Origin: Urbifossiella limnaea | GTDB lineage: Bacteria; Planctomycetota; Planctomycetia; Gemmatales; Gemmataceae | NCBI RefSeq assembly: GCF_007747215.1 | Contig: NZ_CP036273.1 | Coordinates: 2,402,322 to 2,466,321, forward strand | DNA: 64,000 nucleotides | Direction: 5' to 3' | Shown: positions 24,476 through 61,516 of the stretch, in pieces | How the letters are laid out: each line of letters opens with the position of its first letter | How positions within the stretch are numbered: position 1 is the stretch's first letter | Made by a program: the position numbers and the translations under genes | Notes under the pieces: generated by a model | Seen by the model: only the letters and a program-made list of their open reading frames with translations | Database searches by the model: none | Told to the model about the DNA's origin: nothing

Positions 24476-24544
24476 CTCCGAGCCGGCCCAGTCCGGGGTT
24501 GGGGTTGTTCGGCGGCTCCGACCCCGGACGGGGCCGGCTCGGGG
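24476..24544. promoter_or_regulatory. Long imperfect hairpin in the gmd leader
   Basis: The arm at 24476-24499 (CTCCGAGCCGGCCCAGTCCG onward) is the near-perfect reverse complement of 24521-24544, with a 21-base loop. It lies 88 bases before gmd in the 262-base divergent gap. A smaller hairpin (GTTCCCC/GGGGAAT) follows at 24554-24572. It may be an attenuator, a transcript-end element for an upstream start, or an operator. Confidence 0.4.
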
Positions 24545-26690: not shown

Positions 26691-26767
26691 CACAAAAGGG
26701 CACGAAAAGACACAAAAAGTCAGTCTCCGACCGGCTTCCTTCTTGTGTCTTTTCGTGCCCTTTTGTG
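26691..26767. repeat. Degenerate word hairpin element C, between rmd and ugd
   Basis: A perfect 25-base inverted repeat: the arm at 26691-26715 begins CACAAAAGGGCACGAAAAGA and its reverse complement is at 26743-26767, with a 27-base loop. The arm itself is a run of CACRAAARGG-like words. It is AT-rich compared with its surroundings and lies 25 bases before the ugd start. It is the best-paired member of the degenerate word family. Confidence 0.8.
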
Positions 26768-32369: not shown

Positions 32370-32460
32370 GCCCCGGCGAGGGGCCCGCGTCAGCGGGCTG
32401 TTCTCTCCAGTAACTGACGCGCTCAGGAACAGCCCGCTGACGCGGGCCCCTCGCCGGGGC
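32370..32460. repeat. 34-base perfect inverted repeat with 23-base loop
   Basis: The arm at 32370-32403 (GCCCCGGCGAGGGGCCCGCG onward) is the exact reverse complement of 32427-32460. The loop (32404-32426) is CTCCAGTAACTGACGCGCTC and three more bases. A T-run lies just before at 32351-32357. The RNA would form an extremely stable stem. It ends 87 bases before the M28 peptidase start. Its arm length and perfection suggest a mobile hairpin (REP- or MITE-like) rather than a simple terminator. Confidence 0.8.
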
Positions 32461-36113: not shown

Positions 36114-36190
36114 TCAGGGGAAATGGGCCAGGGGACAATGCTCTTACGGTTCTGGAGTGCCTCCTGTCCCCGGGCTCCTGTCTCCTGGGA
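36114..36190. repeat. Degenerate word hairpin element D
   Basis: The right part (36160-36190) holds CTCCTGTCCCCGGGCTCCTG and TCTCCTGGGA words; the left part (36114-36137) holds CAGGGGAAATGGGCCAGGGG, roughly the reverse complement. The words (GGAGACAGG/GGGGACAGG) are the same as those of element E inside the UbiD gene. It spans the gap after, and the last 15 codons of, the small gene at 36144. Confidence 0.6.
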
Positions 36191-36434
36191 GGCCGGCGAT
36201 CACCTTCCGCACAGCGGCCAGATCCTCGTCGGACACGCCCTCGCGCCGCCGGTACCGCCGCTCCAGCGCGTCCAGCAGCGTCTCCCACATGTCCCGGGTC
36301 GGCACGACCGTGCGGTCCCACTCGGTGCGGCGGCGGAAGCGGACCTGGAACCGCCACGCCCGCGCGAACTTCTCGACCCGTACGTACCGCTTCTCGCCGG
36401 TGTCCGGGTCGTCGTCGGTCCACTCGATGCTCAT
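36144..36434 (-). CDS. Small acidic/basic protein of unknown function
   Basis: A 96-residue protein beginning MSIEWTDDDPDTGEKRYVRV. The middle is rich in Arg and Trp (WRFQVRFRRRTEWDRT) and an amphipathic helix follows (MWETLLDALERRYRRREGVS). GGAG lies about 9 bases before the ATG. The last 15 residues are encoded by repeat element D, so the native end may have been replaced. No family is recognised. Confidence 0.65.
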   Translation of the reverse strand: MSIEWTDDDPDTGEKRYVRVEKFARAWRFQVRFRRRTEWDRTVVPTRDMWETLLDALERRYRRREGVSDEDLAAVRKVIAGLPGDRSPGTGGTPEP

Positions 36435-40279: not shown

Positions 40280-43200
40280 TCAGTCGGCGAACACGAACTC
40301 GTTCAGGTTCAGCACCACGCGGCACGCCGCGGGGAGGCCGTGCGCCGCGGCGTAGTCGCCGAGCGAACGCCGCTCGTCGGGCGTCGGCGCCCGCCCCGTC
40401 GCGATGCGGAACGCGGCCGCGGCGCGGCCGGTGTCGTCGGTCGCAAGGGGCCGCACCCGGTCCGCGAGGTGACCGGCCATCGTCACCGCCAGCCGGTTGT
40501 TCAGCAGCGCCAGCGCCTGCTGCGGCGTGATCGTCTGGTTCCGCCGGTCCACGGCGAGCGACGGGTCGGCGCAGTCGAGCGCCGCCATGAACGGCTGCTG
40601 CTTCGACCGCACCACGAACCGGTACACCGCCCGCCGGTGGCTCGCCGGGTCGTTCGGGTTGTGGAGGTGGTACTGGTAGTGCGGCGAGTGCTCGGGCCGC
40701 TCGACGACGAAGTCGCGGAAGCTCGGCCCGCCCATCGTGCGGTCGAGCTTCCCGGCCGCCCACAGGATCGAGTCGCGCACCACCTCGGCCTCCAGCTTCC
40801 GCCGGTTCTGCCGCCACAGGAAGCGGTTGTCGGCGTCGGCGCGGGCGTACTCCGCGTTCGTCGCCGAGCCCTGGCGGTACGTCGAACTCGTCACGATGAG
40901 CCGGTGCAGGTGCTTGAGGCTGTCGCGGTCGCGCAGTTCGGCGGCGAGCCAGTCGAGCAGTTCGGGGTGCGTCGGCAGCGCGCCCATGCGGCCGAAGTCG
41001 TTCGGCGTCTCGACGAGGCCGCGGCCGAAGTGGTACTGCCAGACGCGGTTCGCGGCGCTGCGCCAGACCAGCGGGTTCTTCGAGTCCGTGACCCACCGCG
41101 CGAGCGCCGCCCGGCGGTCGCCCTCGCGGTGGTTCGGCGGCAGGTCGAACGCCGCAGGGAGCCCCGGTAGCTGCGAGAGCGGCCCGGGTTGAACCTCGCG
41201 GCCGGGCTTGGTCACGTCGCCGCGCGGCAGCAGGTGGATCGGCCGCGGTCGGCCGGCGTTCGTGCCGGTGCCGACGAAGTTGCCCGAGCCGGTGTGAACC
41301 GCGCCGACGTAGGCGGTGCGCTGCGTCGGCGGTAGCTTCCGCAGTTCAAGATCGGCCCCGTCGCGGTCGGCGACTGCGGCCCGCCACGCGACGGCGTCCG
41401 CGGGCGCGAGCGCGTCGTCGAACCGCTTGGCGCGTCGGGCGGTGAGTGCCGTCACGTCCTCGGTCGCGGTGCCGGTCGGGAACTTGCCGTCGGTCAGGTT
41501 GGACCGGCGCCACCGCGGCGCTGCTTCGATGCTGTCCAGCGACGTGGCCGCCTTCCCGGCCGCCCGGTTGGCACCGGCCGCGTCGATCGCTTCGAGCTCG
41601 GACACGGCGAGGATGTAGTCCGTGGGCATCCGGCTGACGAGCCGCGTCGCGGTGAGGCGGACGTAGCGCCCCTTCGCGCCGTTGGCGGGCAGGCGTACCG
41701 CGGTCAGGCCGGGGTTGGGGAAGTCGGCCGCGGTGTGGTCGGCGACCAGCGCCGGCCGCGCGAACGCGGCGTCGTCGGACACTTCCACCTTGAACCGCAC
41801 CGGGAAGCCGAACCCGGCGCCGATGCTGTTGAAGTCGTCGTGGCACGGCCGCAGCACGACGCGGTCGAGCGCCACGGTCTCGCCGAGATCGACCTGCACC
41901 CACTTCGCCCGGTCGGGCTGGGCCTCGATGGCCGAGTGGTAGCCGTGTTCCGCGGGGCGGGCGCCGGGCTGCTTCGCGGCCGCGATCTGCTTGTCGAGTT
42001 CGACCAACTCCGGCCCCGCTTTCGCCTTCGCGGCTGACTCGATGCGGCTCACCCGCTCCTGCGCCGCGGACCGCTTCGCGGTCAGCTCGGTGCGCTTCGC
42101 CCCGGTGGCGGGGTCGGGGTCGTACTGGCGGTCGGCCCGGTCGATGGCCGCGAACACGGCCTGCAACCGGTAATAGTCCTCCTGCGGGATCGGGTCGAAC
42201 TTGTGGTTGTGGCACTGGGCACAATGCGCCGTCAGGCTCAAAAACGAGCCCACGGTGTTGGAGACGAAGTCGTCGCGGTCCAGGTGGCGGGCCACGCGGC
42301 CGTCGATCTTCGACTCGGGCAGCTCGACGTGGCCGATGAAGTCCCACGGGCCGGCTGACAGGAACCCGAGCGCCTCGAACCCGTCGGCGGTGCCGGGGAA
42401 CAGCACGTCGCCGGCGATCTGCTCCTGCACGAACCGCGAGTACGGCTTGTCGGCGTTGAACGCCCGGATGACGTAGTCGCGGTACGGCCACGCGTTCGGC
42501 CGCGGCTGGTCCTTGTCGTACCCGTGCGTCTCGCCGAAGTGGACCACGTCGAGCCAGTGCCGCGCCCACCGCTCGCCGAAGTGCGGCGACGCCAGCAGCT
42601 TCTCGACCAGCTTCTCGTAGGCGTCGGGGGCGGGGTCGGCAGCGAAGGCGTCGATCTCCTCGGGCGTCGGCGGCAGGCCGATCAGGTCGAAGGAGAGCCG
42701 GCGGATGAGCGTGCGCCGGTCTGCTTCCGGCGAGGGAGACAGGTTGCGGGTGCGGAGCGTGGCGAGAACATAAGCGTCGATCGGGTTGCGGATCGGGAAC
42801 GCGACGGCCGCGGGCGGGGTCGGCACCGGCGGCCGGGTCAGCGGCTTCAGCGACCACCAGTCGGCGGGGTTGGCGGCGGCCGAGCCGTCGTCGGGCCAGC
42901 GGGCGCCCTGCTCGACCCAGCTGCGGAGCACGCCCACCTGCGCGGCGGTGAGGCGTTCGCCGCGCGGGGGCATCACGTTGTCGGGGTCGGCGCCGCTCAC
43001 CAGCTTCAGCAGGTAGCTGTCGTTCGCGTTCCCGGCCACGATTGCCTTGCCGCTGTCGCCGCCGCGCAGGGCGTCGGCGCGGCGGTCGAGGCGGAGGCCG
43101 CCCTTCTGCTTCTCGGGGCCGTGGCACGAGACGCAGTGCCGGTCGAGGATCGGCTTCACGTCCTTCGTGAAATCGACGGGCGGGCTCTTGGCCGGGGGAG

Positions 43201-58404: not shown

Positions 58405-58917
58405 TTACGCGGCCCCCGGGTCGGCGTCAACCGGCGCCCCGCGGGCCAGCGCGTCCACCTGCTTGAGAAGTGTCGGGACGCGGTATGGGCCGTGCATCGC
58501 GGCCACCCACCCGGCGGCGACTGTCGCTTCGACACCCGCGGCGGTCACGTATAGTGGCGACCGGCTCGCCCCGCGACAGACCTCCACGGCCGTGGCCGAC
58601 GCGAACCGGGTCTTGGCGACGCCGACCACCACGCCGCCGTGAACCGCGTGAAGGTGCCCGCCGAGGCCGGGCGTATCGCCGCCGAGCCAGACGTACCCGT
58701 CAACGACGACAACGTCGGGTCGCGGGCCGAGGGCGAGGACGCCGAGCAGGCACGGCAACTCGCGGCGGTAGAACGCCCCCGGCTCGTAGGCTGCAATCTC
58801 GCTGAAGGGGCGTACGGCTTCGCACTCGGCCACGGCCGCGGCCCACCCGCGGAACCACAATGCGGCCGCGACCGCCCCGCGGGTGCGGTAGTCCACGTCC
58901 ACGCACGCGATCAGCAA
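58405..58917 (-). CDS. Endonuclease V-like protein, short form
   Basis: A 170-residue protein matching the catalytic core of endonuclease V, which cuts DNA near deaminated bases. CVDVDY carries the first Asp, PGAFYRRELP the Glu, VVVVDGYV the second Asp, and VGVAKTRF a conserved strand. Typical family members are about 220 residues; this one begins right at the first catalytic strand and lacks the N-terminal 35 or so residues, including the usual wedge part. TTG start with GGAAGG 5 bases upstream. Activity is uncertain. Confidence 0.7.
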   Translation of the reverse strand: MLIACVDVDYRTRGAVAAALWFRGWAAAVAECEAVRPFSEIAAYEPGAFYRRELPCLLGVLALGPRPDVVVVDGYVWLGGDTPGLGGHLHAVHGGVVVGVAKTRFASATAVEVCRGASRSPLYVTAAGVEATVAAGWVAAMHGPYRVPTLLKQVDALARGAPVDADPGAA

Positions 58918-59020: not shown

Positions 59021-60886
59021 TCAGCCCCACCGATGCAGCGGGCCGCCGCGGGCGAACAGCGGGTCGATTCGCTTCTCGACCGCAGGGTCGTCCTCAAGCG
59101 GCGGCGGCATGTGCGGCTTCAGCCGGGCGTCGATCACCAGCGGCCCGGTGCAGCCCCAGTGCTTCCGATGCGTGAACGCCCCGACTCCCCACACGTCCGA
59201 GGCCGGATCGCTTCGGGTGAACACCACCCACACGAAGTTCTCGACGGACCGGGCGACGAAGTCGGGATCGTCCACGATCAGGAGACAGGGGACAGGAGAC
59301 AGGGAACCAGAAGCAGAAGCCAGCGCGGCGCAAAGCCGAAGCACGTCGGGGTCGCCGGCCGGTTCCTGGTCTCTGGCTCCTGTCTCCTGTCTCCTGGCCA
59401 CCGGTCCCCGGACCGCTACCACGCCGGGCAGCACGACCCGCGGGTCGGCGAAGCCCTCCGGCAGGGCGAAGCCGGGCGGCAACTGCGTCGCCAGCTCGCG
59501 GCGCTTCGGGCCGGCGGCGGCCACCACCAGCTTGCTGCCGGCGTTCAGCCCCAGGCCGGCGCTGTAGTCCAGCGTGTCGATCGTGGTGCGCGTGTGGAAG
59601 TGCAGGTCGGTCTCCCAATCGACGCGCTCCAGGACGTGACGGAAGAACCCGGCCACGTCGTGGATGTCCAGGTCGGGGGCGTCCTCCTTCGCGGCGATGA
59701 ACAGATACTTGGCCAGCGACAGCTGCCCCTGCCCGAGCACGGCGCTGGCGATGGTCAGCAACTCCTGCGGCTTGCGGCGCTCGGCGTAAGGCACGTACCG
59801 CTCACTACCGATCGCCAGGAGCAGCGGGTGCACCCCGGCCGCGTCCACGGCGTGGACCGCGTGCAGGCCGGGGATCACCGTCGGGATGACAGGGCCGGTC
59901 AGGTCGTGGATCAGTTCGCCGAACGACGTGTCCTCCTGGGGCGGCCGGCCGACGACGGTGAACGGCCAGATCGCGTCCGGGCGGTGGTACACGGCATCCA
60001 CCGTCATCACCGGGAACGGGTGCGTCAGGCTGTAGTAGCCGAGGTGGTCGCCGAAGGGGCCTTCGGGCCTGGTGCGGGACGGGTCGATGAACCCGCTGAT
60101 GACGAAGTCGGCCTCCGCGGGCATCGGAAGGGGGCCGGGCTTCACCAGCCTCAGCCGCCGCCCGCCGATCGCGGCGGCGAAGGCGAGTTCAGGCAGCCCC
60201 TCCGGCAGGGGCATCACCGCCGCCAGCGGCAGTGCCGGGGGGCCGCCGACGATGATGTTCACGGGAAGCCGCTCGCCGCGCCGCACCGCCGCCGCGTGGT
60301 GGACGCCGATGCCGCGGTGAATCTGGTAGTGCAGGCCGCACTCGCGGTCGGGCTCGTAGTCGTTGCCGCCGAACTGCACCCGGTACATGCCGAGGTTCGA
60401 CTTCGCCCAGCCGGGCCGGTCCGGGTCTTCGGTGTACACCGCGGGCAGCGTCACGAACGGGCCACCGTCCATCGGCCAGCACTTGAGTTGCGGCAACTGC
60501 GACAGCGTGGTGCGGCCGGCGAGCACGGGGCCACGGCGGACGAACTTCGGGCGTAGCTTCCACGCCGCGAGCGGCACGTCCCAGTAGCGCCACGGGCGGC
60601 GGGCGAAGTTCCCCGGATCGACCTTCAGCTCGACGAGCTTGCGGACGGTGGCGAGGGCGTCGCGGAACAGGAAGCGGGCGCGCTTTGGCGTACCGAACAG
60701 GTTCGACGCCATCGGGAACGGCGTACCGCGGACGCGTTCGAACAGCAGCGCCGGCCCGCCGGCCCGGTACACGCGGCGGTGGACGGCGGCGGCGTCGAGG
60801 TGCGGGTCGATCTCGGCCGGGAGGCGGACGAGCTGTCCCGTGCGCTCTAAGTCGGCGACGCACGCCCGCAGGTTCGGGTATCCCAT
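59021..60886 (-). CDS. UbiD-family decarboxylase
   Basis: A 621-residue prenylated-FMN-dependent decarboxylase. SNLGMYRVQ contains the metal-binding Asn region, VIIGGPPA-like VNIIVGGPPAL and RPEGPFGDHLGYYS hold the substrate and Glu motifs, and HKHWGCTGPLVIDAR the C-terminal dimer region. Substrates in the family range from 4-hydroxybenzoate precursors to aromatic acids, so no gene name is given. Residues about 496-536 are encoded by degenerate repeat element E, in a variable loop before the VDDPDFV strand. ATG 60886 follows GGGAG, which fits better than the longer frame. No ubiX is adjacent. Confidence 0.88.
   Translation of the reverse strand: MGYPNLRACVADLERTGQLVRLPAEIDPHLDAAAVHRRVYRAGGPALLFERVRGTPFPMASNLFGTPKRARFLFRDALATVRKLVELKVDPGNFARRPWRYWDVPLAAWKLRPKFVRRGPVLAGRTTLSQLPQLKCWPMDGGPFVTLPAVYTEDPDRPGWAKSNLGMYRVQFGGNDYEPDRECGLHYQIHRGIGVHHAAAVRRGERLPVNIIVGGPPALPLAAVMPLPEGLPELAFAAAIGGRRLRLVKPGPLPMPAEADFVISGFIDPSRTRPEGPFGDHLGYYSLTHPFPVMTVDAVYHRPDAIWPFTVVGRPPQEDTSFGELIHDLTGPVIPTVIPGLHAVHAVDAAGVHPLLLAIGSERYVPYAERRKPQELLTIASAVLGQGQLSLAKYLFIAAKEDAPDLDIHDVAGFFRHVLERVDWETDLHFHTRTTIDTLDYSAGLGLNAGSKLVVAAAGPKRRELATQLPPGFALPEGFADPRVVLPGVVAVRGPVARRQETGARDQEPAGDPDVLRLCAALASASGSLSPVPCLLIVDDPDFVARSVENFVWVVFTRSDPASDVWGVGAFTHRKHWGCTGPLVIDARLKPHMPPPLEDDPAVEKRIDPLFARGGPLHRWG
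59280..59399. repeat. Degenerate word hairpin element E, inside ubiD-family gene
   Basis: Left arm 59280-59322 holds GGAGACAGGGGACAGGAGAC and related words; right arm 59361-59399 holds CTCCTGTCTCCTGTCTCCTG, its approximate reverse complement, around a 38-base GC-rich core. The words are the same as in element D at 36114. The element keeps the frame of the decarboxylase gene and encodes low-complexity sequence (RRQETGARDQEPAG; SASGSLSP). Confidence 0.68.
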
Positions 60887-61135: not shown

Positions 61136-61516
61136 ATGCTGCCCCCGCCGCACCAACCGCCTCAAGTCGTGCTCCTCGTGGACGACGAGCCGATGATCCG
61201 TGAACTCGGCCGGGCCGTCCTGGAGCCTGCCGGGTACGTGGTTCATACCGCCGATGACGGCGACACCGGCGTCGCGGCCTATGCCGCACACCGGCCGGCG
61301 CTGGTCGTCATGGACTTGACCATGCCGCGGATGTCTGGCCGCGAAGCGTTCCTGCTCATCCGGTCCTTCGACCCGGCGGCGCGGGTACTGTTCTCGACCG
61401 GGTTCGCGGCCGACGACGTGACCACGCTGGCCGGCCCGGTCGGGATGCTCCCCAAACCCTACCGCCCGACCGAACTGCTCGACGCAGTCCGCGCCGCACT
61501 GCCGACCCCGGCGTAG
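61136..61516 (+). CDS. Single-domain response regulator
   Basis: A 126-residue receiver domain: LVDDEP holds the acidic pair, VMDLTMPRM the phospho-acceptor Asp, FSTG the Ser/Thr position, and PKPYRP the conserved Lys. No output domain. It resembles the C-terminal receivers of hybrid histidine kinases, so it may act in a phosphorelay. No kinase is adjacent. ATG 61136 is the first start after an AT-rich leader. Confidence 0.87.
   Translation: MLPPPHQPPQVVLLVDDEPMIRELGRAVLEPAGYVVHTADDGDTGVAAYAAHRPALVVMDLTMPRMSGREAFLLIRSFDPAARVLFSTGFAADDVTTLAGPVGMLPKPYRPTELLDAVRAALPTPA

Follow-up and report, generated by a model that had tools for sequence, protein, structure and literature searches.

What kind of repeat DNA can reside within the gene of a conserved enzyme, and how did it come to be there? 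The question is raised by a short segment of a UbiD-family decarboxylase gene of Urbifossiella limnaea, located just before the conserved motif VDDPDFV. The gene lies in a 64,000-nt stretch of DNA (hereafter the window) that corresponds to positions 2402322-2466321 of the single 7.80-Mb contig of the source genome (Table 1). A profile search finds three Pfam domains in the product (UbiD_N, UbiD and UbiD_C), the TIGR00148 score exceeds its cut-off, and the AlphaFold2 model (pLDDT 87.5) matches E. coli UbiD (5m1d) in Foldseek with an E value of 5.8e-41. The protein is a UbiD-family decarboxylase by these sequence and model comparisons, with a predicted prenylated-FMN-dependent activity. UbiD matches were found in 57 of the 59 genomes searched, the source genome included. 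The neighbouring ORFs are Endonuclease V-like (58408-58917, minus strand) and a response regulator receiver (61136-61513, plus strand) according to Pfam.

Table 1. Features of the window and period-7 arrays or hairpins at corresponding places in relatives (positions are those of the window; G000, source genome; G001-G005, congeners; equivalent forms of a word in parentheses)
Feature	Position	Strand	Description
UbiD-family decarboxylase gene	59024-60886	minus	621 aa; putative ATG start; stop codon 59021-59023
Arm 1 (first in gene order)	59363-59396	minus	heptad array, word GAGACAG (= GGAGACA); encodes ARRQETGARDQE
Native stretch between arms (PDVLRLC helix)	59313-59362	minus	aligns with homologues
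Arm 2	59279-59312	minus	heptads in complementary sense (TCTCCTG/TCCCCTG); encodes SGSLSPVPCLL; ends in strand before VDDPDFV
Degenerate copies of the UbiD words	36114-36190		between two minus-strand genes; overlap end of ORF 36144-36434 (start codon by eye)
Hairpin	26691-26767		decamer-like word CACAAAAGGGCACGAAAAGACAC; similar ones recur in source-genome sample
Hairpin	32370-32460		non-periodic; resembles recurrent GGCCCGCGTGAGCGGGCTGTTCC type
Hairpin	24478-24542		non-periodic
UbiD arms, G000			arm 1 GAGACAG; arm 2 TCTCCTG
UbiD arms, G001			arm 1 GGGGCGA; arm 2 CCCTTGC and CCCTCAC
UbiD arms, G002			arm 1 none; arm 2 ACTCAGC (= AGCACTC)
UbiD arms, G003			arm 1 none; arm 2 ACCCCTC
UbiD arms, G004			arm 1 CCCAAGT (= AAGTCCC); arm 2 AGTACTC
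UbiD arms, G005			arm 1 CGAGTTT (= GAGTTTC); arm 2 AAACTCG
UbiD arms, L276			arm 1 CGGAACG (= GCGGAAC); arm 2 ACTCACC (= CTCACCA)
UbiD arms, L281			arm 1 CGGAACG (= GCGGAAC); arm 2 CCGCACT (= CTCCGCA)
GlnE-like linker, G000			lag-7 identity 0.81; z -2.7
GlnE-like linker, G001			lag-7 identity 0.86, another word; z -4.1
GlnE-like linker, G002			lag-7 identity 0.95, third word; z -3.6
GlnE-like linker, G003			none
GlnE-like linker, G004 and G005			long in-frame non-heptad hairpins; z -7.1 and -4.5
Transporter (BPD_transp_1) linker, G000 and G001			lag-7 identity 0.86 and 0.81; z -1.8 each, no better than codon shuffles
Transporter (BPD_transp_1) linker, G002 and G003			none
Transporter (BPD_transp_1) linker, G004			non-heptad hairpin; z -6.3
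Transporter (BPD_transp_1) linker, G005			lag-7 identity 0.90 plus nested hairpin; z -6.1

The repeat words reported for the UbiD gene at about 59280-59399 are real, and they take the form of two 34-nt heptad arrays arranged as an inverted repeat, the arms being 82% complementary across 34 nt and both lying within the open UbiD reading frame. Lag-7 identity is 0.93 in arm 1, where all other lags give at most 0.57, and 0.86 in arm 2, where the next best lag gives 0.71. Because the repeat unit is 7 nt (GGAGACA / GGGGACA), the 9-letter word described earlier is one heptad plus the beginning of the next. Single-strand DNA folding of the arm region gives a z of -5.1 against dinucleotide shuffles, and RNA folding of the segment gives -5.4 against codon shuffles. 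Six copies of GGAGACAGG occur in the window against 0.72 expected, a number reached in none of 100 shuffles; four of them fall within 59281-59394 (two per strand), one at 36177-36185, and one, isolated, at 42735. A looser 16-letter pattern with three mismatches is not enriched in the window as a whole (17 matches against 12.3 expected, equalled in 11 of 100 shuffles).

These words had been thought to encode about 40 residues, but of the 120 nt they make up no more than some 2 x 34 nt, the central 50 nt being native (GDPDVLRLC). The simple idea of a 40-residue repeat element inserted in the UbiD gene was rejected on this account: a native helix (residues 513-523 of the AlphaFold2 model) separates the arms, the closest relative, G001, has GDPDVLRLC at the equivalent place in the family alignment, and the length of the segment, 57 codons in the window, is within the range of 39-62 seen in outside homologues. 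No element borders were seen for the UbiD arrays. Arm 1 does encode a low-confidence loop (residues 502-507, pLDDT <50), as would suit a surface loop absent elsewhere, but arm 2 encodes structured positions up to the strand at residues 534-538, and the segment is therefore not simply a surface loop that other UbiD proteins lack. In a sequence search this strand, which precedes VDDPDFV, pairs with VIVCDDDVNARD of E. coli UbiD, at 5.3 bits, a score not significant alone. The preliminary description had further held that an insertion would be contradicted by the same peptide in other UbiD proteins with different DNA words. The peptides were found to differ; yet all five congeners and two further relatives carry period-7 arrays there that are spelled with different words.

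These arrays were traced in a first set of 35 sequences from 34 of the 57 genomes with a UbiD match (the G020 matches did not span the segment) and, after the addition of 80 further loci, in 115 sequences in total, at least seven of which are duplicates, leaving at most 108 independent ones. Periodicity was scored by the highest lag-7 identity in the segment (21 comparisons; lags 5-10 tested); the congeners are draft assemblies. All six members of the genus show a lag-7 identity of 0.76-0.90 (next best lag 0.64), and none of the 29 sequences outside the genus in the first set exceeds 0.52. In the total set, identity is at least 0.76 in eight of 115 sequences and reaches at most 0.67 in the other 107, the additional carriers beyond the genus being L276 (JAFKJJ01) and L281 (PNLP01). 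Within the tblastn-aligned gene parts, values of at least 0.8 are restricted to the two arm places. In a 113-tip UbiD tree built with the segment masked, all eight array-bearing genes belong to one 10-tip clade (support 0.994), although some of the inner branches are weak (support 0.10, 0.42). Two members of this clade, L035 and L036, are without arrays. Both arms are present in six of the eight array-bearing genes, and arm 2 only in two (G002 and G003).

Comparison across the clade reveals different heptad classes at this one UbiD site. Arm 1 of L276 and L281 has a common word; otherwise the words mostly differ among species (Table 1). Both arms are built from the same heptad in G000, G001, G005 and, weakly, L281, and not in G002, G003, G004 and L276. 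Strong arm folding is found only in G000, G001 and G005 (z -5.4, -4.0 and -5.2, respectively); the L281 arms fold weakly (z -2.7), and no arm folding is found in L276 (z +1.3), G002, G003 or G004. Among the 107 non-array segments, z falls below -3.5 in none (25 shuffles each; lowest -3.4). The arms of G004 and G005 are of equal length and in register despite their different words, with phase-clustering p values of 0.036 (arm 1) and 0.055 (arm 2). Over arm 2 as a whole, the phase-clustering p value is under 0.05 for 11 of 21 pairs; the corresponding figures are 4% for 200 control pairs, one pair of 21 for period 6 and none of 21 for period 8. The effect is partly built in when any two period-7 arrays are compared, and it was computed with L281 left out. 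It is absent in the closest pair, G000-G001 (0.65). Overall, position, 7-nt period, reading frame and clade restriction persist while the words change. A second in-frame, palindrome-like insert occurs near residue 258 of UbiD in G005 (L074, ~1127-1225) and G035 (L078), with pairing judged by eye; the two inserts have different sequences and the species are distant.

The local word is also common in its own genome in several cases. Words were counted as three-unit pattern matches, overlapping units and the UbiD gene itself included, with the reversed word as control. The source genome contains 69 overlapping matches to GGRGMCAGGRGMCAGG with at most one mismatch, against 17 for the reversed control, and 24 to GGRGMCA (reversed control 7), which has 0, 1, 2, 3 and 4 matches in the congeners. 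The reversed GGRGMCA control itself matches 41 times in G005 and 10 times in G004, which points to a probable further period-7 array of GGAC type there. GGGGCGA has 25 matches in G001 (control 4) and 0-10 elsewhere, and GAGTTTC, for which the control is 0, has 154 in G005, 142 in the sister genome G004 and 2-14 elsewhere. The two UbiD words of G004 behave differently: AAGTCCC, of arm 1, has three matches in G004, two of them at UbiD, against two for the control, and AGTACTC, of arm 2, has six, again two at UbiD (control 0), the other four being overlapping matches on two other contigs; each word has one match in G002 and none in the six other genomes. GAGTTTC, abundant across the G004 genome, is yet absent from its UbiD arms. 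Enrichment in the genome whose UbiD carries the word is thus clear for three of the words tested, GGRGMCA, GGGGCGA and GAGTTTC, and weak or lacking for the two words of G004.

The source genome contains degenerate tandem 7-nt units dispersed in many copies, both intergenic and intragenic. Of 26 site rows, 21 show a lag-7 identity of at least 0.71 within 90 nt, and the other five are probably chance matches. These sites share heptad words and, by eye, not array number, loop or borders, and a mobile element of fixed sequence was rejected. A known RNA family was likewise rejected, as Rfam gathering matches in the eight sources searched were tRNAs only (14). At about 1566637-1568373 of the source genome (L004, 250-1986), 13 tRNA genes lie within some 1.7 kb, and a GGRGACA hairpin separates two of the genes. 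The same words had been noted 23 kb from the UbiD gene, at 36114-36190; they are indeed present there but degenerate, and encode the C-terminus (LPGDRSPGTGGTPEP) of the short minus-strand ORF. The strict ungapped hairpin detector misses this site (36150), and different hairpins occupy the orthologous position in congeners G001 and G004. Spread between loci, claimed from these two sites, is supported by the excess of GGRGMCAGGRGMCAGG matches and by arrays in five other ORFs, with copying as the presumed process.

A strict scan of 1.262 Mb of source sequence finds nine period-7 arrays and 11 each of periods 6 and 8, as well as 109 dispersed hairpins, 10 with period-7 arms and 75 without clear period; order-2 Markov controls contain neither period-7 arrays nor hairpins. 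The window's UbiD arrays are below the strict period threshold but are among the 109 hairpins. Further dispersed hairpin types in the source genome include an octamer, TGAAGGGG, together with AACCACAGAGTCACAGAG and ACAGGATAACAGGATGAACAGGAT (e.g., L158 7326-7413, L169 6357-6445, L176 4931-5059 and L215 8079-8152). Three intergenic sites have different hairpins in congeners, folded without a shuffle control. Of 15 places examined with the strict ungapped detector, 7 have a hairpin, and another 43.6 kb of these loci have 11; this control is rough, because three of the 15 places have one flank only and three were projected on long stretches (711, 1311 and 1643 nt).

Coding tolerance, the other property claimed for the repeat, is supported by the open frames that carry it: in addition to UbiD, five further source-genome ORFs (of 26 site rows, five ORFs scanned) have in-frame arrays and Pfam domains, namely UvrA, DEAD helicase, GlnE, CT_C_D and BPD_transp_1, the last in a putative PstA gene. 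The array is thus kept in frame inside genes of unrelated function, as in palindromic-element families. No stops occur in the aligned frames of the GlnE-like and transporter linkers in congeners. As 7 is not divisible by 3, successive units of a heptad array are read in each of the three frames in turn, and the array is stop-free in all frames or in none. Neither strand contains a stop in the consensus words of G000, G001, G005 and L281, whose arms are complementary to a greater or lesser degree; because this is true of 50% of all heptamers, and of 75% at an assumed GC content of 68%, stop-freeness is a filter rather than strong evidence.

Arm 2 of the window encodes Cys at a position that is Leu in 95 of 100 non-heptad homologues (otherwise Met in three, Ile in one and Trp in one; 7 of the 107 sequences, without a recognisable VDD motif, were excluded). 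The Pro just before the Cys (-5) and the Leu at -9 before VDD are kept in all eight array-bearing genes. Such a departure from a near-invariant Leu suggests that it was the repeat, and not the protein, that brought about the change.

How such a site arises can be read in several ways. We consider it moderately probable that an inverted pair of heptad arrays is ancestral in the UbiD of this clade, most likely Gemmataceae, and that its words have turned over in concert and are tolerated. The array pair would already have been present in the UbiD of the clade ancestor. Units within an array may then have been homogenised by slippage or template switching, an older suggestion, cited in a passage of PMC4679880, being that units of this length make polymerase slippage more likely; in some lineages copying from one arm to the other across the hairpin may have made the arms complementary, and the arrays may have taken up words that are frequent at other loci of the genome, so that position, period and reading frame would stay and the word would change. 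The arrays would then share a common ancestry and would have no function beyond that of tolerated repeat DNA. They would be tolerated because arm 1 encodes a presumably disordered loop and arm 2 keeps the required Pro and Leu, and because a word without stops on both strands fits a gene in either orientation. Several observations weigh against this turnover: folding is strong in three of eight genes only, arm 1 is missing from G002 and G003 and both arrays from L035 and L036, inner branches are weak, AAGTCCC is not enriched, the G004 UbiD lacks the abundant GAGTTTC, the phase test succeeds in only 11 of 21 pairs, and the strict scan finds periods 6 and 8 as often as 7. No donor event was observed in the genomes compared. 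More speculatively, older arrays at fixed sites, those inside conserved enzyme genes among them, might receive copies of whatever heptad word is currently common in the genome, with no shift of place or register, with the two arms matched and with near-invariant residues overridden. The sites would then be slots rewritten per species; we regard this replacement process as a doubtful, tentative possibility.

Independent insertions, in which mobile palindromes of the Rickettsia palindromic element or MITE kind repeatedly hit permissive linkers, each species with its own family, are an unlikely source of the UbiD arrays. The native helix, the family-range length, the concentration of all eight cases in one clade at the same places, the equal, in-register arms of G004 and G005 with different words, and the lack of any visible border all argue against them, even though the source genome is rich in dispersed hairpins (none in the Markov control) and UbiD of G005 and G035 has, by eye, a second palindrome-like insert. 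The linkers of other genes speak for this reading. In the GlnE-like linker, non-heptad hairpins of G004 and G005 stand where G000, G001 and G002 have heptad arrays, and the transporter linkers of G004 and G005 contain strong hairpins, that of G005 being nested and accompanied by heptads; these unrelated structures require insertion or replacement rather than word drift, and repeated insertion must therefore also act to some degree. Selection for an mRNA or DNA hairpin (for pausing, stability or termination), with the sequence free and the arms covarying between species, would account for the different words yet pairing arms of G000, G001 and G005 and for the different hairpins at orthologous intergenic sites. 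It is distinctly improbable, since five of the eight heptad-bearing UbiD genes lack a strong fold (z above -3), two of them having arm 2 only, the transporter-linker arrays of G000 and G001 do no better than codon shuffles, and the 7-nt period is more widely conserved than the pairing, although a hairpin function would have no need of such a period. Least credible of all are chance and selection acting on the protein through a low-complexity or amphipathic peptide. The Leu and Pro kept in all eight genes could be cited in favour, but we give this reading almost no weight, because a period of 7 nt is not a multiple of 3, outside homologues lack period 7, and the Markov control contains no period-7 arrays against nine in the source sequence.

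An ancestral slot in a conserved gene, occupied in eight genomes by mostly different words, would make turnover traceable in register under protein constraint, and such a slot could separate slippage, arm-to-arm copying and inter-locus copying. The likely source of amino-acid change in this conserved protein would be repeat DNA rather than selection on the enzyme, and such loops should not be read as adaptive or as simple insertions. Taken together, the arrays suggest that repeat DNA goes on altering a short stretch of a working gene and leaves the gene intact.

In searches of the open-access literature, no paper on heptad arrays in planctomycetes or in UbiD was among the matches listed, a weak negative given that subscription papers are not covered. 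Heptads as such are familiar from cyanobacterial STRR repeats, degenerate heptanucleotides that also occur within functional RNA genes, in a phylum other than that of the UbiD arrays. In the portions of the published accounts drawn on here, heptad repeats are described as over-represented in many bacterial genomes (PMC4692102). The heptameric G-rich repeats GGGAATC and GGGGA[C/T]T of Xanthomonas and Nostoc resemble the UbiD arrays in being dispersed heptads with species-linked words; they are treated there as quadruplex formers (PMC4692102), whereas GAGTTTC, AGTACTC and AGCACTC contain no G tracts, and a G-quadruplex was rejected as the common basis because it would not be general. The TAACTGA direct repeats of marine Beggiatoaceae and some cyanobacteria are dispersed heptamers, sometimes mixed with related ones, but consist of a single word, lie for the most part between genes and ahead of start codons, and include just one indirect repeat in the main genome (PMC4679880, in part). 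The heptanucleotide elements of Geobacter metallireducens, 49 copies of four GGACCGG units, lie between and within genes, as the dispersed heptads do here, and other Geobacter classes are paired on opposite strands; they differ in being described, in the relevant part of the source, as putative regulatory elements, with no comparison of words between orthologous sites in that part (PMC2700814).

Rickettsia palindromic elements, insertions of about 150 bp with family-specific sequence, are likewise palindromes tolerated in frame within genes for conserved proteins, according to sections of PMC10969869 and PMC2996958. Unlike them (PMC10969869), the heptad arms of UbiD flank native sequence and vary by species. 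Since no clean insertion was found and no shared consensus was seen by eye, the arrays are best classed as dispersed heptad repeats and not as members of the RPE or MITE type. Their closest analogue is the P6b stem of the Nostoc tRNA-Leu(UAA) intron, with class I TDNGATT and class II NNTGAGT heptads, where, in the part of PMC4476775 concerned, 7-nt repeats build a stem at a fixed site and one class has repeatedly replaced the other with the structure kept. That stem belongs to a group I intron RNA with two word classes (PMC4476775), whereas the UbiD arrays are protein-coding, occur in another phylum, use more word types across eight genomes and partly share their words with dispersed copies.
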